Assembly: GCA_950295325.1 (NCBI GenBank)
Contig: OX485803.1
Span: 61,953,554-62,017,553, forward strand
Length of the DNA: 64,000 bases
Source: Polytrichum commune
Lineage: Eukaryota > Streptophyta > Polytrichopsida > Polytrichales > Polytrichaceae
Reading direction: 5' to 3'
Shown: one piece after another, positions 1 to 43,757 of the stretch
Layout of the letters: the number at the start of each line of letters is the position of its first letter
Numbering within the stretch: the first letter of the stretch is position 1
Translations under genes and position numbers: made by a program
The notes under the pieces: generated by a model
Databases searched by the model: none
The model's input: the letters and a program-made list of their open reading frames with translations, nothing else
Told to the model about the DNA's origin: nothing

Positions 1-240
1 GATGAGGAGGAATGACATTATAATGTGAGTTGTATATGCCTCAATGCAATTGATGTCATTATCGTTCTCCTAGATGCTATGAATGACATTAATAGATAAG
101 GCCTAAAACCCATTAATTTAAAATTCTTTTTGATAATTTTTTTTTTGTCAAATAGAATCCTATATTTATAAATTTATTTTGTTGAATGACAGATCCACGG
201 AGAATGATCACGTGAAGACCAATTTGGTTCATAAAATCCA

Positions 241-3200
241 TCGTATTCAGAGCTTTGGGTCTTTGAAGCTACAAGACTTTAAATTTTTTTATCCCCTAAG
301 GATTATACTAAGTGCGAGAAAAAACGTCCATTGACTACATGATATCCTCTTACTACAGACATTTTTGCAGCTTTTATCTACAAGGTGAGTCTTTAACATC
401 TCAATATCTACATCAATTTCATATTCTTACATTAAGTTGTATTATTCTTTTGAACTAATTTTTTTCAATGTTGTTTTCAACGTAATGTTGTGGCAACATC
501 ATAAGAGGCATGTCGTGAGTACATGGACAACACTTCATTGGCCCAAAGATCTCTTAGGCTTGAATTGCAGGCTATAGCAAATACGGTTAAGAAAACAATG
601 AGTGCATATAAGTCAAAGGAGTTTGATAAATTCTTTGCAGTTGCGGATCCCGCAAATGACGTTGATTTTGTGAACGATGTAAATCTTTATATTATTCGTT
701 TGATTTTTGTACTATGTTTTGTTACATTGTGTACTTTATATTCAACATTGATTTCATTATTTCCAGATAAAATGTCATTGGAGTTTTAATTCTAAACTAG
801 AAATGACCTTGGAAAAATTGTAAAAAATTACAACAACTCCGATGGATGACAAATATAAAGTGAAATGGTTGAAGTCGTGGAATTCACCTCCGATGATATG
901 TGAGGCTTTGCATTTTTGCAACCTAATTTTATAGATAATGACTTTGATTTGTGGTTGGTGAACATATCATTGTAAGCTCAGATAATATTATGAATTATAA
1001 TTATAAATGCATTTATGCTTATGAAAACAACATAATTTTTATACATCGTTTATATTGATTCAGATAGTTATTTGACATAACACTTTATGTATGAATTCTA
1101 ATTTTTAGTTGGATGAGGGTGCTATTAGTGAGTTTCATGACATTCTACCACAATTGGGTGATGTAGTTTGGGACAACGTCCTCTAAATTGGAGATTATAT
1201 AAAAAAATGGTGTTGTTTTTTTTGGGACAAAGCGTATACTTGAATGTTACACGGTTCAACACCATTTGCAAAATTCACAATGTTGATGAAGAATCATGAA
1301 GGCGAATTGACAGTGAAACGTGTGATATATAAGTAATTTGCTACACTTGACTATTTTAAAGTAATAAAATTTATGTTCATTGGTGATATCGAATTAAATT
1401 TGTTTATTGAATTTGTGTAGGTACCTAACAAGGGAGTTTGAATCTTGGAAAACAATTTCATTGCAAGCATTGCCTTCATTTTTGAACTCATGGGCTGACA
1501 TGTCAAGCGACCAATGCATATTTTTAGACTTACAGTTGATATTGTGAACTGATGATTTATTGGTTCATTGTCCATGTTTATTGAATGTCTAACAAATTTC
1601 TATCCCGCCGAAGAAAAAAGTCTTAGGTTGTCAATGAGGCCATCACAACCAATGGAGAAAGAACCTCATGAAGAGCAACAATATATTGGGAGAGGAGGTA
1701 AATGTAAATGGAAAGCGCATGCTACACGAAATTCTTTTGTATTAGCGAAAATGATTGTACTGTCGCTACCACCGCCACCATCTACACTAATGCCACAAAA
1801 CAATAAACGCAATGTTGATTTGCACCTTGATGATATTGCATTAATTTTTAGTCCACCCTAATTTGTTATTGCTTCAACACTTTCAAATTCTATTTTTCAA
1901 TATCAACATGTGGTTGTTGAAGCTTTTGATAGATCTAATATATAGAAGGTTTCTACGTTGGTGAAGAACTAGTCAATCTCCAATATGTTAGAGAATGATG
2001 TAATCAACAACCCAATGTTGATGTCTGCGTTTAAATTTGTCAAAAATGTTAGTGAGCTTGAACAACATTATTTAATTTTTTATGTTTTTATAAATTTTTG
2101 TGTTTGAAAACAATTTTTTTTTGTTTATGAGATTCTAATGTATTTCATTTTGATTTATAAATTGGCTATGTTCGCAAGATTCGTATTTTGTCCGAAATTT
2201 GTAAATTTGGTGGATTTGATCTTATCATTGCGGATTTACCAGAGGGTCTACCTATTCTGAATGTGTCTTCTTCTTTATATTTAATTCCATCTTGAAATGC
2301 ATACAACTCAAAGGGCATAGAGGTTTTATTTGAATTTACAGATGATTTTCTCACAGATGATGTTCCATTGTTATTATTTCTTCCGGAGTTCAAAATTGTT
2401 AGGGATGATGTTAGGGCATGTGCTGCTTCATATGGATTTGCATTGGCAAAAGATTGGTGGACAATAAATGAATTGTCATTGTGTCTGCCAACAAATACAA
2501 AATTTACGGTACACTCCTATCTTAAATTTTTAAGTATTATTTTCAAATATATATGGATTATATTTGTTGTTTGATATCATAACAAATAACTATTTTCTAA
2601 TAATGAAGATACAACATTGTATATAAACTCGACGGTTTCGGCTCATGATATTCTTTCGATTGGTGCCCTGTCCATAATTTGTTTTCAATAAACTGGGTGG
2701 TCTATCTCCAATAAAAATGGGGGCCCTAGATATCTTCTTCAATCGTACTACGTCCAGTATTCAATTGATGCATGAAAATATCCCATAGAGAGGAGCACAT
2801 GAGAAAGACCTTGAGTCTTTGCAATTTCTTATTGAAGCATTAACTAAACCATGAGATGTTGTCCTTGCTACTTATGCAATTATAGGTTAGAAACAAATTC
2901 TTTTTGTTTTTTTGTAAGTTTTAGAATTTAAATCTTTTGTACATGACAAATATGTTATGATGTGCACAATTGTATTTATTGCAGGTGTATCTATTCATGC
3001 TTGCCGTCGTAGTGGTTAACACCTTGTTGCATTCGAAAAAGACTCGGCAATTTTCAACGCGATATTAGCCCCTTTGTGTGATTCATTGCCACCTCCTATT
3101 GTCCATGGCTTGCAATCAATTAACATGGCATGCGAAGATGATGATGAGCTTATTCGGAAAGTTCCAAGAAAATCTCGCTTAAGTACGTAAGTTTGTTGGT

Positions 3201-3490
3201 TTGAATGATTTTAAAATTTTGGTTTTCTTGTGGACTACTTAGTCTTTCACCAATTGTTTGTAACATTTTTGGATATTGTGTGTAGAAAAATGAAGGAAGC
3301 GATGTCGCCTCCTCATCAATTGATTATCCCTGTGTATGCCGAGTCTGAGGCGATACGGTTAGCAACTGTCATTACACCTCCAAGGCAAAGTAAATCTAAA
3401 CATTATGATCTTTGTATCTTAACATTCATGGATATAGAGGCAGAGGAATGTAATGTTCGTGTTTGTAATAATAAGGAGAATAATAAATAA
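241..3490 (+). pseudogene. Decayed intron-bearing gene with a beta-class DNA amino-methyltransferase-like C-terminal half
   Basis: Coding-like blocks separated by GT-AG introns can be followed in one direction. Candidate exons are about 241-384, 515-680, 1109-1332, 1421-1860, 2160-2508, 2609-2885, 2985-3186 and 3286-3490; introns 1333-1420, 2509-2608, 2886-2984 and 3187-3285 are about 90-100 nt. The 2160-2508 exon reads FDLIIADLPEG at 2215-2247, resembling methyltransferase motif IV (the D-P-P-Y/W catalytic loop) with the first proline changed. The 2609-2885/2985 junction reads LIEALTKP, stop, DVVLATYAIIG, then VSIHACRRSG, stop, HLVAFEKD. This matches the layout of motif I, where the family has P-G-D-x-V-L-D-x-x-A-G-x-G followed by an acidic strand. 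Motif IV before motif I is the beta-class order. In-frame stops at 2293, 2852 and 3017, plus others upstream, show that it is dead. The family match is from memory of motifs; a mobile-element origin is inference. No terminal repeats were found. Confidence 0.6.
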
Positions 3491-5498
3491 TAAAACAGAA
3501 TAGACTATAGATTCATGAAGAGGTCTTGCACATGACTTAGTATATATGTGCACATGTTTTTTTTTGTGGCAATTATCTAGTTTTTATAAAATAACCACTA
3601 ATAGTGGACATTGTTTTGTGTGACCATTGATTAAAATCCCTAAACCCTAATGATTTACACAACATTCTTGTTTTATAGCTTCCGTCATTGTTTCAAATGT
3701 TCATATGAATTGGAACAATTAATTGGCAAGTTAGTTTTCAGCATGTAACATGTGTTGATGTTTGAGCTACAAGTATGTGGTAATAGGATACCAAACCCAC
3801 GGCGATGGGTATGTTTCTTGAAATTTTCTCACCCTAATCCGTTCATTAGTTATTGTTCACTGCTCATCGCTCACTGCTCACCGCTCATATGATAGTGCTC
3901 CCTGCACCATCGTCCCAACTTACTTTTAGTTCATCCACATGCCAATATCAACATAAAGTTTGGTATATTTTGCATTTGTAATGAGCTATTGTCATGGATA
4001 ATTGAAGTTTTCTTAACTATTTGTGATGACTGAGGACGATTGGAATATAACGCGAACCCCCTCCTCTATCTATAATCCTAAAGTGAATTATTGACACTAC
4101 ATAAGCTTGTATCAACCCATGGCCTTGCATTTGGAGGGATAGTAATGCAGCCCGCCACTTCATGCCATCCCGGAGTGCTTCCCACTTGGCATGGAGGTTT
4201 TTATACGTTTAGAGAATATATAGGTGCAATAAGTCCTATAAGATTTTGCTTTGCCTTGGAGAAATAGGAATTTGCACCAAATTGTGCTTGTAACATGACA
4301 TGAAGAGTTGAGAAGGCATGCATGTTTCCTTGTCAATGGGTATTGTCCATTGTATGAACTATCTTTTAGCACTTTTAGCAACACCTCAATCATGGAGCTC
4401 AAGTTTAGCATGAAAGATCCTCATCATCAAGTAAATGAACTTTGACCCCATCTAGAATAGGCACGTGAGCTTTCAATTCAAAATTAATATCATCCCATTA
4501 TCAATATATGTACTTTCATTTTGTGCAAAAATATTTCTATTGCAATTTGGAGTCCTTATCCGCTAGTCATAAATATAAAACAAGCGTCTGTAATAAAAAT
4601 TTAAAGTGTATTTAGACTTGTGCATGAATCTTGGACATGAGACTATATGCATGCAGGTTTTATCGGCGGACCATACACTAGAGATGGTAGAAAATAGCTT
4701 GAGGTGTGGATTGCATCTCTTGTTATATACACTTATTTCTTACATGTACATGGGGTTATGTATGAAAGACACACATCTAGAGTGGCGTGTTGGAGCACAT
4801 TTGTTTTCAAACTATGTGAAGTTAGGGTTTCCATCATATTCTTCTAGTTTTACTCCCCTAAATTATAGTTTGTTGTGAAATGTGCATGTATCGTTGGTGC
4901 CCATGATGCTCTCAAGTTTATTAATTTTGCGGACAAGTTTTTTGTCTATATTTACTTAAAATAAAAATTCATAACTGCAAAATATCAACTTTGCAAGGGC
5001 TGAATCTTCTCAAGTTTTGTTGAGGCGAAGACGGTTTTATGACTAGATTCTAAGTATAGAGTTCGTTTCCACATAAAAGATAGCCTAAAGAAGAAAATGT
5101 TGGTGCTAGTTGGCTCAAATGCCCCCTAAATGTCAATGTGGTCCAATGTGAGCCCTTCCATGCCCTTGTCCATGCCAAAAAATGTGTACTTAAACTACAT
5201 GCTTCCAATTTTTAGCTAATCATCTCAAACTTGAGCCTATCTAATTCTTCAAGTGCATTTTTCAAATCACTTGAATGCCTTGATGTTATTGAAGAATTGA
5301 TTTCAAATACATATGATGGTGCTCACGAATGCAAATACATATTGAATAATCAGTCACAGATTTGACTTAATTTACTTTCCTTGACATAAGATAATGACCA
5401 AATTAAGCATCATTAAAAAAATTGCTTTTAAGACTTGGTGAGGCTCGTATAATTGGTGGATAAGATAGATGAGCATTAGATGGATACTTTTCTCTCAA
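3491..5498. other. Intergenic, no gene recognised
   Basis: AT-rich DNA without a convincing coding region. The only structure seen is a short imperfect minisatellite of a CTCACTGCTCA-type unit near 3850-3890. Confidence 0.5.
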
Positions 5499-5821
5499 CA
5501 CCCACTTCTCATAGGACATGAAACACACAATAAGTGCAAGATGATTAGCAAATTCAAGTTGTGCTCATGGTCATGTCCCTCGATATTTCTAGAGCTCATA
5601 TGAATATCTTATTCATAATTGAAGTGAAGATTCTTGTGCTCATTGAATGGTCATATAAGTCTCCCCCCCCCCTTTCCCCCCATCATGTTGATTATTGAAC
5701 CCATGATGTTAGTTAGCATATTTTGAGCACATAATCTAATCAATGATTATACACATGTGTTTTTTTGTTGCCAATTCTTAGATCCACACTTGATCACATA
5801 CCACTCAAATGTAGGTGTCTA
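5499..5821 (+). repeat. Dispersed repeat family A, copy 1
   Basis: About 320 bp related to sequences at 28405-28708 (same strand), 43462-43757 (reverse), 23813-24474 (interrupted) and 34857-35038 (partial). Shared landmarks are CACCCACTTCTC, GATGATTAGCAAA, GAGCTCATATGAATATCT, a GTGAAGATT...GCTC block and the 3' CACATACCACTC...AGGTGTC. A poly(C) run at about 5660-5680 lies inside this copy where the other copies have a short pyrimidine stretch. No terminal inverted repeat, poly(A) tail or coding capacity was seen, so the element class is unknown. Confidence 0.75.
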
Positions 5822-25254: not shown

Positions 25255-28251
25255 TTAAGTGATGTTGATGTCAGCACGGCGAGCATCCCTGAGGGCAGGA
25301 TTCACCCAAGTGCCCATTGGTTGAAACGGGCCCATGAGGTTACTTGGTTGCACTCCACCCGAAGTTTGGGCACTAAGAGCTTGATGATGTGCTGAAACTG
25401 CCATCACATGTAGGAAGAAGAGGATGAGAATGGAATCAGATATGCGATTTTGTGCAACCATCGCACATTCTCCAAAACATGTATGTGCCTCACAAAGTTG
25501 TATAGTCTGCTGTGTATATGGTCACCCCAATAGTCCCTTAATAATGCATAGCATTTGCAGTGCCTACATGGAATGCACTTGTAGATAAGTAGCAAAACCT
25601 CATGACAGATTGCAATACCTGGGGATTTCTGTTCAATCTTAGGAGGACGAGGTGCTGAGACAGGGGTGACAGCCCCGGCTTGACTGGCTGGAGACAATCC
25701 AATTGTAGGCTCTTGCATATGAACAACCTTCACTGGAGGCTTGCCTGAATCAGAGATGAAACTTCCAACTACCACCTACAAAGCAAAAAATAGATTTTAG
25801 AAGCACAAAATCGCCCAATACAAGAAAATCGCCACACTTCTTCGAAGCATAAAGTGTGGCATGCTCTTTCTCATGAAACCAAAATGTAGATGAAGGTACA
25901 CAGAAGCAGTATATACCAAAACACTTCAAGAATCATTCCTGGAGTTAACTCTTGTACAGAAGAGAAAGAAAGAAAGAAAGAAAGAAAGAAAAAGATTATT
26001 TATTTTTAAAAATACTTAAATACTTAAATACTTAAAAAGAAGAAGAAGAGTTTGGAAACGCACCTGTATGGGTGAAGCTGCCATAAGTAAACCTGCTACA
26101 CCACCACCTATTACTCGCCCATCTGAGCCTGCTAAAGAAACGCTAAGTCCGCCAGTACGCTGCCAGGAACCACCTCCTGTGTCTGTGGGGAGAAACGAGC
26201 CCATCAATGAAAGAATCTCGTAACGCCCCTGCATCATAGTAACAAGTAGAAAAATGCATTAAGAATAAGGCTTACTCCATTCTAAAAGTTGTAATCAACC
26301 AGATACTCTACATCAAAGTTCTATTATTGACATCTCAAGAGTTGTAGGAGCATACAGAGATAATTTCCTCCTTTGAAACAAAAGGTTGTATTCAATTAAA
26401 GAAGCCACGTAGACATGGTTATATAGAGAGAGAAATGAGAACGCATGCAAAGCATTAGGTTCATAAGAATGAGGGTTTTTATCAATGAAACCATGAATAA
26501 AAAAATCAACAAGTGACTGAACAAATATTAGCAGTCCTGTGCACCCTTGAGCATGGCCCCTTGACAATAGTCAAATTCCAGCTGAGGCATTTTGTGGTTC
26601 ATTCCCTAGTTTTTTTGAGAAATGATTCACTCAGAACTTTTGAACACATATGACCAGCTGCACGAGTTACTGAACACTGTAAACAAAAGGCACACAACGG
26701 GCACACAACAACAAAAATATCTCAATCACCTCATATGTAACATTGCCCCCTGATGAAGATTGTTGGCGTAAGGTCACATTAGAGATTGCACCATTTGCTG
26801 AGATTACACACACTGCCCTTGGACCATGTTGAGCAAATGACATTATTTTATTTGCCACATCCTGCATGCAAAGCAACAAGTTAGTGGATAAACAGTATGT
26901 ATGTCACACAGCTAGATATTGAGAAGGTAGGTTGATGACAGTTAAGTTGCCCACAATATTAGCCATAATACAACTTTGACAACTAGTACAATCATTACGT
27001 CGACAGCACTTACCTGCGGATAAATGACAAGGACTTTTTAGCATGACCCATATGTGTTCTTTCTACAGACTAGTACAAAAGAAGGCCAATTAAATGTGGT
27101 GGTATGGAAACCTCACCTCACCAGCGGCAATTGTGAGGATATGGGGAGTGAAGCCCTGCCCTGCCGATGAGCCTGCCAGCAATGCCCCTGGTAAGAGGGA
27201 TACACCTAGTAGAAACCTCTATTTTAGTAGGGCCTTAGTATGGATATCCCTGCTGTAAAACAACAAAATGCTAAGCATGTTACAAGCAAACGACCATTTC
27301 CAAATAATCTCATTGGACAAAGACAAATCTTCTTCCAGTTGCAGTTAGTTGTTGACAAGTATCAGAAGAAGCAACCTTTGCTGCTCATTCCTTCCAGCAT
27401 TTTATTGTGATATTGGGCTCTTGAGTCTTACAATAAAGGAGGTGATGTACAAACTTTTTATCCCTTCTGCAGCAAGTGTTGTTAGGAGCAGGTATAGGCC
27501 TTCATCGCCAACTATCCCTGCAGATCAAGAGTGGTGATATTGTGTTGACACTAGAGTTTCGCTGTGCCAAATCTCAAGCCACTACATTGAACCGTTCAGG
27601 ATAGAGAGGAAGAATGAGCCATAAACAGGTTCTTTATTCATTCCTTTCACATTGTAATGACTTAACTAAAAACAGTATTCGAGTGAATATTCAATAACAG
27701 TCACATGTGAGTGAGATTTTTGTTATTGATTATTAGAGGTGTGTGACTTGAAGCTCTCCTACAAAATGTGGGCTATCTGTCTGTCGCTATGACAACCGAC
27801 CTAATAGAGGTGAAAAGCCACCTGTACCAAGAGATGCCAACTGCTGCTTCTTGCCGGAGCCAAGCGGTCTTCCTCGTTTCTTCCCTGATCCTGGAGTGTG
27901 TGGGGAACCACCTGACGAACTGTGAGGAGGTTGGAGTCCGAGCTGCATGTTGACAGGTGACCCAGCTGCTCCTCCACCGTCTGGACCAACGTACTTGCGA
28001 GGTCTTCCTCTTTTCCTCTTCAGAGGCTCAGCTGATCCCCCCACACCCATGCTCATCCCCAATTGAGGAGGAGGCATCGCCAACACTACATGTGGGCTGC
28101 TTGTTGAGGATGGGCCATCAGTGGGCGGCGGAGGAGGAGGGGCGGGCACAGGCGCCGCCGCTGCATTCGACATCGCTACTACTAAGAGTGGCGATGGTCG
28201 CAAGGCAGTAGGTCCTGGTGCAGGATGTCCCTCAGCAGGTGCCGTAACCAT
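25255..28251 (-). CDS. AHL: AT-hook motif nuclear-localized (AHL) protein, type II, 372 aa
   Basis: Six exons joined by GT-AG introns: 28251-27801, 27187-27117, 26861-26730, 26228-26064, 25775-25619 and 25397-25255. They sum to 1119 nt, 373 codons including the stop, with matching phases and no lesion. Residues 1-75 are an Ala/Pro-rich low-complexity region. A first AT-hook KRGRPRKY lies at about residues 80-87 and a second KKRGRPLGSGKKQQ at 124-137. The PPC/DUF296 domain runs from about 163 (GFTPHILTIAAGE) through GRYEILSLMGSFLP at 219-232 to GGGVAGLLMAASPIQVVVGSF near 278. One RGRPRKY hook plus one RGRPxGSxKK hook followed by PPC defines type II AHLs. Such proteins bind AT-rich minor grooves in the nucleus, form trimers through PPC and modulate transcription. 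The tail RADINIT resembles the usual plant AHL C-terminus. The start was chosen as the first ATG of the open exon; a leader intron acceptor is likely near 28308. Confidence 0.93.
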
Positions 28252-28404
28252 GCCAAGTCCTTTGACTCTCCAAGGGCTCCACTCAATTGTCAGTCAGTGT
28301 CTAGGTAGCACCTGCATCAAAAATAATCCACTTAGCGACTCTCATTTTCCAACCTTGTACTTTAGACTTGACTGAAAGGTAGACGTGCGTTAATCGATTT
28401 CTCT
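28252..28404 (-). promoter_or_regulatory. AHL 5' leader with probable intron acceptor
   Basis: On the minus strand a TTTTTGATGCAG acceptor-like sequence occurs about 57 bases before the AHL start codon. It suggests a 5' untranslated exon farther upstream, which plant AHL genes often have. A candidate donor (GAACAAG followed by GTGTGA) lies near 29640. This is inferred. Confidence 0.35.
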
Positions 28405-28708
28405 GTGTACCCACTTCTCGTAGGATATCAAACACACAATCAATGCAAGATGATTAGCAAACCCAAATCGCGCTCGTAGCCATTCCTTATAAATTTCGGA
28501 GCTCATATGAATATCTAATTCACTATCAGAGTGAAGACTGTCATGCTCATTAAGTAATCATATAGGTCCCCTCAACCATGTTGACTATCGAGCCTAAAAT
28601 GGTTAGAATATTTTGTGCCGTAGTCCAGTATCTTCTCAACACATATCTTTTTGATGTTTGCTCTTAGATCCACACCTAATCACATACCACTCAGAGATAG
28701 GTGTCCAT
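28405..28708 (+). repeat. Dispersed repeat family A, copy 3
   Basis: Uninterrupted copy with all family A blocks from CCCACTTCTCGTAGGATAT to CATACCACTCAGAGATAGG. It sits immediately upstream of the AHL coding region, possibly within its leader intron. Confidence 0.75.
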
Positions 28709-31994: not shown

Positions 31995-33300
31995 TTGTTG
32001 TTGCCGCCGCCGCCGAAGAGATCTGCCGTGGTGGCAACGGCAACTAATACAAGAAGAAGCCGTCCCTCCGGAACTTTCTAGAGAATCAGATGTTGAATGA
32101 GAAGAAGGTAATGAGGACACGAGTTTAAGAAGAGGAAGAGTAGTACACACACACAGACGATCGAAGGGCGTCATCAACACGACGGAATGATTCGTGTTCA
32201 TTTATAGCCTCACAGAGATCGTCTCTGAATTGAAGATGTGAACGTCAGGTAGGCGATTTGAGTAATGATGTCGCAGTGATAAGGGATTTTGTTTTAGGTC
32301 CAGAAGCACCTCTGCATTTATCTCTATGTTCTCTGTTCTCGTGATTCTCCTTGCTTGTTAACGTTGTTGCCGACGAAGGCAGGAGCTGCTGCGGCAGGCA
32401 CCGTGGTAGTAAACAGAAGCTAATACAAGAAGCCATCTCTCCAGAACTTGCTAAGAGAATCTAATATCGAATGAGAAGAAGGTAATGAGGAATTGATTAA
32501 GAACAGGAGAAGCAATACACACATACAGACGATCGAAGGCTGTCATCAACAAGACAGGATGATCCCTGTTCATGTACACCCTCACAGAGATATTCTTTAT
32601 TTGAAGATGTGAAGGTCAGGTAGGCGATTCGAGTAATGATGTCGCAGTGATGAAGAATTCTGTTTAGGTCCAGAAGCACCTCTGCATTTATCTATCTATT
32701 CTCTGTGCTCGAGATTCTTCTTGCTTGTTAACGTTGTTGCCGGAGAAAACATGACCTGCGGGGGCAGGGGCCACGGTGGTAACGGCAACTAATCCAAGAA
32801 GCCGTCTCTCCAGAACTTGCTAAATAAATCAATCGCTGAATGAGAAGAAGGTAATAAGGACACGATTAAGAAGGGGAAGAGTAGTACATACAGACAATCG
32901 AAGACTGTCATTAACATGACAAGATGATCCATGTTTTACAGCCTCTGCAAAGAGATCTCCTGTGATTTGAAAATCTGAAGATCAGGTAGGTGATTTAAGC
33001 AATGATGTCGCACCGAAGAAGAGTTAGTACTTAGGTCCAGAATTATCTCTGCATTCATCTCTAATCTCTGTTCTCTTGATTCCCTCTTGCCGGCGAAGAG
33101 CTCTGCTGCGGCAGGAGCCATGCATACGAAGGTTGTCATCAACGTGACAGCAGTGTTCATTGACAGCCTCTGCAGAGAGATCGTCCTTGATTTGAAAATG
33201 TGAAGATCAGGCAGCTGATTTTCATGAGTGAGCAATATTGGTGTCGCAGTGATTACGAATTAGTGTTTAGGTCCAGAAGTTAATTACCTCTGCGTAATTC
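31995..33300 (+). repeat. Four-unit tandem array, about 370-bp period
   Basis: The landmark GGTCCAGAAG recurs at 32297, 32667, 33034 (GGTCCAGAAT) and 33270, giving spacings of 370, 367 and 236 bp. Each full unit also carries GAATGAGAAGAAGGTAAT, CAGACGATCGAAGG, a GTCATCAAC..GAC block, AGATGTGAA.GTCAGGTAGG, AATGATGTCGCAGTGAT and a GTTGTTGCCG...TGC(C/G)G(T/C)GG junction. The fourth unit lacks about 130 bp. The units are moderately diverged and non-coding. Confidence 0.85.
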
Positions 33301-43461: not shown

Positions 43462-43757
43462 TGGACACCTATATTTGAGTGGTATATGATGAGGTTTGGC
43501 TCCAAGGACAGACACCAAAAGGACGTATGTCTAAAAGAGATTGGACTACGTGCTCAAACTATAATAACCGTTCTAGGCTCAGTAGTCAACTTGCTTGGGG
43601 GGACGTACATGACCATTGAATGAGCACGAGAATCTTCACTTTGATATTGAATAAGATATTCATACAAGCTCCAAAAGTTACGAGGAAAGTGGCTGCGTCC
43701 TCGATTTGGATTTGCTAACCATCTTGTACTAATCGTGTGTTTTATATCCCAAAAAGT
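43462..43757 (-). repeat. Dispersed repeat family A, copy 5 (reverse orientation)
   Basis: Reverse complement of the family A order: GGACACCTATATTTGAGTGG at the left, ATGACCATTGAATGAGCAC in the middle, and TTTGCTAACCATCTTG...GTGTGTTTTATATCC at the right. Confidence 0.7.

Follow-up and report, generated by a model that had tools for sequence, protein, structure and literature searches.

A decayed methyltransferase-like gene of Polytrichum commune belongs to a family of two-gene DNA transposons with palindromic arrays

A stretch of 64,000 nucleotides from Polytrichum commune (contig OX485803.1 of assembly GCA_950295325.1, positions 61,953,554 to 62,017,553 of the forward strand; hereafter the window, with position 1 as its first base) carries near its left end the relic of an intron-containing gene that resembles DNA amino-methyltransferases. 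What remains there is the degenerate 3' portion of a large DNA transposon with terminal inverted repeats, in which a transposase gene and the intron-containing gene, referred to here as the cargo, are arranged divergently. That the family consists of two-gene transposons with a methyltransferase-derived cargo is close to certain. The best overall explanation of the data, considered probable as a whole, adds to this that the methyltransferase-derived cargo, probably non-catalytic, may serve its transposon as a DNA-binding regulator or anti-silencing factor.

A preliminary description of this DNA had read it as a dead, intron-bearing copy of a beta-class methyltransferase gene, possibly from a mobile element or a horizontally acquired family. 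The three motifs on which it relied were recovered on the plus strand: FDLIIADLPEG at 2215-2247 (motif IV-like), DVVLATYAIIG at 2855-2887 (motif I-like) and HLVAFEKD at 3020-3043 (acidic strand). Motif IV and motif I are separated by one intron, and motif I and the acidic strand by a second; the spacing of about 800 bp across two introns given earlier is correct for the distance from motif IV to FEKD. The introns have GT...AG boundaries (at approximately 2509-2608, 2886-2984 and 3188-3285), and cargo introns of this copy measure about 85-140 bp each. Across the exons between 2161 and 3187 there are five in-frame stops, three of them recorded before (TGA at 2293 and 2852, TAA at 3017) and two additional (TAA at 2675, TAG at 2786). 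With frameshifts elsewhere in the gene, the copy is dead. Cargo exons continue on both sides of these: upstream they run beyond the left edge of the window, and downstream the last one closes with a TAA at 3488.

Transposon structure and gene pairing

The mobile-element guess proved right. The genome of the same assembly (407,808,757 bases in 64 contigs, seven of them large) contained 42 matches to window positions 2160-3186, including the window itself, the others being 66-93% identical at the DNA level, introns included. An isolated pseudogene was ruled out by this number. The cargo genes fall into three lineages, labelled A, B and D (some matches to the window repeat carry the label C), and the window copy belongs to lineage A. 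Twenty stretches were compared (17 lineage-A copies, two diverged copies and the left side of the window itself), and lineage-A copies were approximately 82-89% identical in long blocks. Similarity of the window copy to the others begins 1604 bp before the window and runs to a shared, sharp 3' terminus, at 3903 in the window, which was common to 15 of 16 aligned ends (the exception being copy L025); in L020 and L024, similarity ends 210-265 bp before it.

Two long copies of 12.7-13.1 kb have imperfect inverted repeats and are flanked by exact 10-bp target duplications, GTTTTGATCC and CGTCTAGCAG. A 6.3-kb copy that has kept the cargo gene and lost the transposase half is flanked by GACACGACGC, and a lineage-D element nested in a lineage-A cargo exon by ATCTCCAATG, giving exact 10-bp duplications in four elements in total. 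The nested element (L042/L043, C3:1691700-1703600) sits inside the motif I exon of the lineage-A gene, so this D copy moved after that A copy. The terminal inverted repeats are about 27 bp long, with 6-8 mismatches to the reference 3' end, and are accompanied by GAGC-type subterminal units. When 22 sequences were scanned for both ends, 19 had a recognisable 3' end and three a 5' repeat pair; the 5' ends of the remaining copies were truncated, overlaid by another insertion (a lineage-B element) or outside the stretch retrieved. No 5' target-duplication partner of the window copy was found in the 10 kb read upstream of the window, and this copy is therefore truncated or rearranged.

The dispersal, terminal repeats and target duplications bear directly on whether the relic might be a decayed host gene of bacterial origin that was never mobile. 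Host genes of such a kind do exist, in a liverwort (Marchantia DN4MT1) and in bdelloid rotifers (N4CMT), according to the available parts of PMC8566409 and PMC8885841. For a multi-copy repeat with this structure, a host-gene origin is considered most improbable.

The left half of the element carries long minus-strand transposase frames with a CxC...CxH stretch near the end, and the right half the plus-strand, intron-containing cargo, divergent from it. The transposase may end in a SWIM-type zinc finger, for which the scores against PF04434 were below the cut-off (13.0 and 14.0 bits, E 0.077 and 0.039; cut-off 19.6). The features expected of Mutator-like elements (MULEs) that were present are a target duplication within the 8-11 bp range (10 bp) and terminal inverted repeats; the arrangement of acidic and C..H residues, together with the 10-bp duplication and the repeats, is taken by us to resemble that of Mutator-like elements. 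These features suggest an element that is Mutator-like in structure, and superfamily membership was not assigned.

Pairing of the two genes was examined across the genome with 150 scored transposase loci of 1884 candidates, so that every pair count is a minimum; for contig C6, a guessed length entered the calculation of the random expectations. The methyltransferase loci numbered 93 after merging, and comprised 35 of the 42 matches to the window repeat (30 of lineage A, five of C) and 58 of 84 matches to a lineage-B exon probe, among them diverged B-like loci ('B2'); the matches left out were further fragments of the same or neighbouring places. At least 46 of the 93 had an opposite-strand transposase upstream within 20 kb (0.3 expected), five had a transposase in another arrangement, and 42 had none among the 150 scored. 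For lineage D, the divergent upstream transposase was present at no fewer than 29 of 41 methyltransferase loci, 23 of these at a distance of 7.36-7.87 kb. A second set was based on the N-terminal exon of the cargo of D and related elements (153 matches, 1258 candidates; 141 loci after nine second fragments had been removed from the matches listed). A divergent transposase lay upstream at 12 kb or less in at least 90 of these 141 loci, at a median distance of 5.15 kb and against an expectation of 0.3; at the remaining 51, no listed transposase occurred in any other arrangement. Of the 150 scored transposase loci, 60 were without a partner among the N-terminal-exon loci listed. The constancy of this pairing makes the methyltransferase-like gene a regular component of the element and not an accident of one copy.

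Methyltransferase affinity and motif IV of the cargo

By sequence, the cargo is a member of the PF01555 family, a membership that does not in itself imply methylating activity. The window copy matched PF01555 weakly (E 0.017, 15.6 bits; curated cut-off 26.7 bits), as it did NCBIfam PRK13699 (E 5.6e-4, 19.7 bits against a cut-off of 244), five PHROGs methyltransferase families (E 0.0037-0.26) and, in the PDB, CcrM (E 0.74); its motif IV exon alone had no match in Pfam, NCBIfam or PHROGs. Sister copies gave the decisive scores. The motif I exons of E009, a less decayed lineage-A copy, reached 36.2 bits against PF01555 (E 7.9e-9), and a lineage-B copy reached 32.4 bits (E 1.1e-7) and aligned to profile positions 1-216 of 221, in the order IV then I, which agrees with the beta-class order proposed earlier. 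Chance similarity was ruled out by these matches above the cut-off. The lineage-D domain matched PHROG 67, a DNA methyltransferase family (E 2.4e-9). In the PDB, a profile built from lineages A, B and D matched three beta-class enzymes, DpnA (E 2.1e-4), CcrM (E 0.06) and MboIIA (E 0.59); its other matches were two chains with no name beyond 'Methyltransferase' (E 0.001) and one tRNA methyltransferase (E 0.85). All three lineages retain the cofactor motif I, of the D-x-x-x-G-x-G type, and the acidic residue that follows beta strand 2, as LDAYASTG/FEKD (A), LDLFVGTG/FEAD (B) and VDLTCSTG/FEGD (D).

The domain is preceded by a linker and a conserved N-terminal region that carries KMFxxWxGNH(R/P)xxAW. 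A ParB-like N-terminal domain, as in ParB-methyltransferase fusions of the phage type, was considered and rejected, as only a motif-like DGNHR was present and the exons had no match to PF02195. That family occurred at four loci in the genome, all on the small contigs C10, C12 and C23. These contigs (C10 and C12 are 47 and 61 kb) carry intronless methyltransferase or ParB genes, with a GC content of 0.48-0.64 at the loci read on C10 and C12, and resemble bacterial or phage contamination of the assembly.

A horizontal origin of the methyltransferase domain, raised in the preliminary description, is likely, and no close prokaryotic or viral relative of the cargo was found among the viral contigs, prokaryote genomes, plasmids and phages searched. 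The lineage-D protein gave only weak phage methylase matches (35 records at E <= 1, best E 5e-3), mostly to motif I, and four plasmid records (best E 0.02); the lineage-B protein had no relative in phages, and the cargo had none in viral contigs or prokaryote genomes. Methyltransferase genes are frequent in giant viruses and in the endogenous copies of these, which is the attraction of an endogenous DNA virus or Polinton-like element as the source of the gene. The absence of viral-contig relatives, the weak and mostly motif I-confined phage matches, the short terminal repeats and the 10-bp duplications are all contrary to this, and no capsid, polymerase or packaging gene was recognised among the open frames of the two 13-kb copies, not every frame of which was scanned; a viral origin is thus given scarcely any credence.

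Motif IV is a point at which the earlier reading needed correction. The DLPEG segment is present, and it differs from the canonical amino-methyltransferase sequence (D/N/S)PP(Y/W/F). The readings were IIADLPEG in lineage A, IIVDIPYG in one and IIVDIPDG in two lineage-B copies, and VFLQFPDG in two lineage-D copies. The double proline occurred in none of the 25 copies read, and the aromatic residue in none of 20 A/C rows, one of three B copies and neither D copy (absent in 24 of 25 overall). DLPEG was retained in seven of the 20 A/C rows; the other rows were decayed here and had E, K, N or, in one case, a stop at the position of the aromatic residue. Both D copies have Gln in place of the first acidic residue. 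An acidic residue in place of the aromatic one, common to lineages only about 30% identical, looks inherited rather than the product of random decay, and the recurrence of a similar change in most of the copies read from three lineages leaves it possible that already the ancestor of these proteins was something other than an ordinary methylating enzyme.

A working N4-cytosine or N6-adenine methyltransferase, one that marks its own transposon DNA (for example at the palindromes described below) and so alters silencing or recognition by the transposase, is the most serious competitor to a regulatory role. In its favour are the retention of motif I and of the acidic strand throughout A, B and D, the presence of DIPYG inside an uninterrupted 577-aa exon of one B copy (C1:9662150), and the fact that palindromes are typical of symmetric recognition sites. 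Set against this is the missing aromatic residue in 24 of 25 copies, among them both copies of D, the most recently active lineage, where Gln also stands first. A working enzyme is considered unlikely, and the narrower statement that the cargo is not a canonical methylating enzyme is held with slightly more than even confidence. An altered catalytic motif in nearly every copy combined with a retained cofactor motif would probably indicate a DNA-binding protein that binds S-adenosylmethionine (SAM), rather than a canonical N4/N6 methyltransferase.

Lineages, palindromic arrays and proposed function

The preliminary description had proposed looking for intact paralogues, and copies with long open exons were found in two other lineages. 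A PF01555 scan of the genome gave five loci. Three of them are on C10 and C12, the small contigs mentioned above; the other two, on C1 and C4, are lineage-B copies that are 98.7% identical over 2.8 kb and have a 577-aa open exon. The B-exon probe recovered more B loci, diverged B-like loci and the third lineage, D, with many open 153-aa exons. Two D copies are 99.2% identical over 3.5 kb. In the methyltransferase domain, protein identity to B is 28% for D and 30% for A, and the N-terminal regions of A and D are 44% identical. Over the 189 aa probed, the transposases of A and B are 88% identical; the nested D element has a transposase with 86% identity to that of A. At the DNA level, A and B elements resemble each other only in the transposase half and the last 84 bp. 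The cargo and the array that accompanies it differ between lineages, while the transposase is constant (about 88% between A and B, and similar at D loci).

The arrays are tandem repeats containing long palindromes, located between the divergent genes and different in each lineage. In A, the core is TGGAATAGGGGTTTCGGTACCGAAACCCCTATTCCA, with perfect palindromes of up to 36 bp and a period of about 136 bp. In B, it is TGTTTGTGCGC-TG-GCGCACAAACA, 24 bp long, with a period of about 104 bp, two palindromes having a 2-bp centre and one being perfect. In D, it is AGTTTGGGTCG-CT-CGACCCAAACT, 22-26 bp with a 2-bp centre and a period of 32 bp, along with perfect palindromes of 28 and 30 bp. The A core was found with up to three mismatches in 13 of 18 lineage-A copies; in each of the five without it (L011, L017, L018, L023 and L025), the alignment with the window copy is confined to sequence on the downstream side of the array. 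Distinct palindromes numbered eight in D and four in B (10 and five if double counts are included), and shuffled regions averaged 0.03, with a maximum of two. Perfect palindromes of at least 18 bp numbered 19 in the 64-kb window, and every one was built from one or two kinds of base. A comparison of two D copies showed differences at 7 of 161 sites inside palindromes (two gap columns) and at 35 of 333 sites outside them (40 gap columns; Fisher p 0.024).

Divergent genes, a palindromic, operator-like array between them and a cargo matched to the lineage together make up the layout expected of a protein that binds its own element. On the proposed scheme, the cargo protein would recognise its own lineage's palindromes, in all likelihood as a dimer; once bound, it would control both promoters or shield the element from host silencing, by analogy with VANC in VANDAL elements, the nearest precedent that has been tested; and the array-plus-cargo module may have been exchanged between elements, or have diverged rapidly under an arms race. 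That the cargo binds the palindromes and regulates or de-silences the element is about evenly balanced between yes and no, and at that level a DNA-binding regulator or anti-silencing factor is favoured over a working methyltransferase. A broader scenario, which seems possible although somewhat short of even, is self-recognition across the whole superclade. A bacterial-type methyltransferase would have been captured and its motif IV rewired to [D/Q]xP[D/E]G with the cofactor pocket kept, and each lineage's protein would read its own array to de-repress or protect the element, as an exchangeable array-protein cassette on a constant transposase. The successive waves (A extinct, B fading, D recent) would then reflect an arms race with host silencing.

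Gene capture occurs in elements of the Pack-MULE kind, and the cargo could in principle be a passively captured fragment of a host or foreign gene, its methyltransferase domain having no role. Lineage-A copies lack codon-position bias, as this would predict, and a lineage-B element has, between array and cargo (approximately C1:9657341-9658760), an open kinase-like stretch (LGRGSYGVVWKC...; PF00069 E 0.0096, below the cut-off) that is perhaps a captured gene. Passive capture does not readily account for the constant divergent arrangement at 90 or more of 141 loci, for an intron-containing gene, motif I and N-terminal region shared by lineages 28-30% identical, or for the D N-terminal exon, in which 23 of 62 full-length rows are free of stops (including 17 of 36 rows at 86-90% protein identity). 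It is regarded as improbable.

Several observations weigh against the regulatory scheme or the affinities on which it draws. Arrays other than that of A are known from one B element and one B fragment and from one D element and one D fragment, and in the B fragment the array of the B element is recognisable but decayed, no palindrome with an arm of 7 or more being left. One B copy, with DIPYG, is near a working motif IV. The lineage-D protein alone scored 22.1 bits against PF01555, below the cut-off, and had no PDB match, and AlphaFold models of the N-terminal exon and the transposase were of very low confidence (pLDDT 34-36) and gave no structural support. The transposase did not match PF10551 (MULE) at E <= 10, and the nearest of 150 listed PF10551 loci (of 271 candidates) lay 23 kb from any of the 150 listed transposase loci. 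Shared variants in lineage A had frequencies of 0.160, 0.133 and 0.145 at codon positions 1, 2 and 3 and 0.156 in introns, so that no selection on the cargo is visible there, and the ratios of non-synonymous to synonymous change (pN/pS) in recent pairs were weak evidence of constraint (B, 14 non-synonymous and seven synonymous, approximately 0.5; D, 14 and six, 0.62).

The window copy, its surroundings and known systems

The lineage-A copy in the window, a 5'-truncated or rearranged element defined by DNA alignment to other genomic copies, occupies positions 1-3903 on the plus strand, as do all the features within it. Positions 1-99 are the end of the N-terminal exon, the remainder of which lies upstream (a tblastn match of the lineage-D N-terminal exon to L028 3620-4096 corresponds to window -380 to 96). 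The exon at 190-384, frameshifted, with a putative start and ending at the donor GTGAGT, matches the open exon 'STENDHV...FAAFIYK' of E009; that at 483-678 matches 'RNVVAASEEACREYRD...' of the same copy, with inferred ends and no AG acceptor seen in the window copy. Translation and the E009 counterpart support an exon with a stop and a frameshift at 767-971, and GT-AG ends with the counterpart 'LEEGAIIEF...VKRVIYR' one with stops at 1109-1332. The linker region is encoded at 1421-2077, with an inferred 3' end, a frameshift near 1547-1574 and stops, where the E009 frame is continuous. Then follow the exons of the methyltransferase domain, at 2161-2508 (IIADLPEG at 2224-2247; stop 2293), 2609-2885 (EKD...LIEALTKP and the motif I stretch; stops 2675, 2786 and 2852) and 2985-3187 (HLVAFEKD; stop 3017), and, after a GT-AG intron, the last exon at 3286-3490, which ends with the TAA at 3488-3490 and has open counterparts in E009 and E010. 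The 3' terminal inverted repeat spans 3838-3903, with GCTCACTGCTCAT-type units, and ends in ATAGTGCTCCCT, the same terminus as in 15 of 16 aligned ends; the first bases beyond it, 3904-3913, are the expected target-duplication site, for which the scan for both ends found no 5' partner.

Elsewhere in the window, a likely AT-hook (AHL) gene lies on the minus strand at about 25,400-28,300, with an RGRPRKY motif at 27790-28293; the PCC domain PF03479 was matched by two of the 41 window frames scanned (best E 7.2e-10). Units of about 370 bp are tandemly duplicated at 32026-33090 (78-80% identity), and three related interspersed repeat copies of about 78% identity occur at 5500-5665, 28409-28707 and 43462-43749. 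No Rfam family or tRNA was found when the window was scanned for them. The genome also contains a second multi-copy family with a methylase domain, in this case of the C5-cytosine type (L046 1-2199, C1:13367000-13369200; PF00145 E 7.6e-12), with an adjoining weak aspartyl protease match below the cut-off and with frames that reach 1386 aa; 352 candidate loci, 123 of which were scored, are spread over C1-C7. It looks like the Gypsy-type retrotransposons with DNMT described from the alga Klebsormidium in the available part of PMC5890265.

Transposons that carry DNA-modification genes offer a rare view of how genome parasites counter silencing. Here, the lineage-specific palindromes are directly testable candidate binding sites, the recent D copies provide natural proteins to test, and the change in the catalytic motif prompts one to ask which role a methyltransferase fold may have when it possibly no longer methylates in the usual way. 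The open literature searched, from which most subscription papers and Repbase were absent, contained no account of plant DNA transposons with a beta-class amino-methyltransferase, and in the portion examined of a cross-eukaryote review of Mutator elements (PMC6446971), methyltransferases are not among the accessory genes.

The closest parallel in organisation is VANDAL of Arabidopsis, a Mutator-like element with an accessory protein beside the transposase and with target duplications of 9 bp, against 10 bp here (PMC5735166 and PMC6446971, in part). VANDAL elements have tandem repeats in their non-coding parts that vary between related elements, and VANC binds such tandem motifs and lowers the DNA methylation of the elements; VANC is not described as a methyltransferase in the part of PMC5735166 available, whereas the accessory protein in P. 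commune is of the beta-class methyltransferase family, and its element has repeats in the form of long palindromes, placed between the two divergent genes. The VANDAL-type feature seen here, in A, B and D, is the presence of tandem motifs specific to each lineage in the non-coding DNA of the element, and the cargo exons scanned had no match to a plant transposon-protein Pfam family.

Other mobile elements have joined DNA-modification genes to their own. In fungal TET/JBP DNA transposons such a gene also adjoins the transposase, but it encodes a dioxygenase, and MULE or Mutator elements are unmentioned in the part of PMC12730594 available. KnitGypsy-Dnmt3, SymbioLINE-Dnmt and DIRS elements with Dam-like enzymes have likewise acquired DNA methyltransferases (PMC5890265, in part); those retroelements carry C5 or Dam-like enzymes, in contrast to the DNA transposon with a beta-class amino-methyltransferase relative described here.

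Among enzymes, bacterial DpnA, CcrM and MboIIA (PF01555) share with the cargo the order IV then I, the cofactor motif and similarity in the motif I region. They differ in having the canonical (D/N/S)PP(Y/W/F) and no introns, and in being without a long N-terminal region of the cargo type. The preliminary description had doubted that such enzymes were a standard plant family; amino-methyltransferases do exist in plants, in the form of the Marchantia N4-methylcytosine (4mC) enzymes MpDN4MT1a/b (PMC8566409, in part). These, and the bdelloid N4CMT (PMC8885841, in part), are like the cargo in being eukaryotic genes of bacterial type, but they are host genes with reported 4mC activity, and not the cargo of a transposon.

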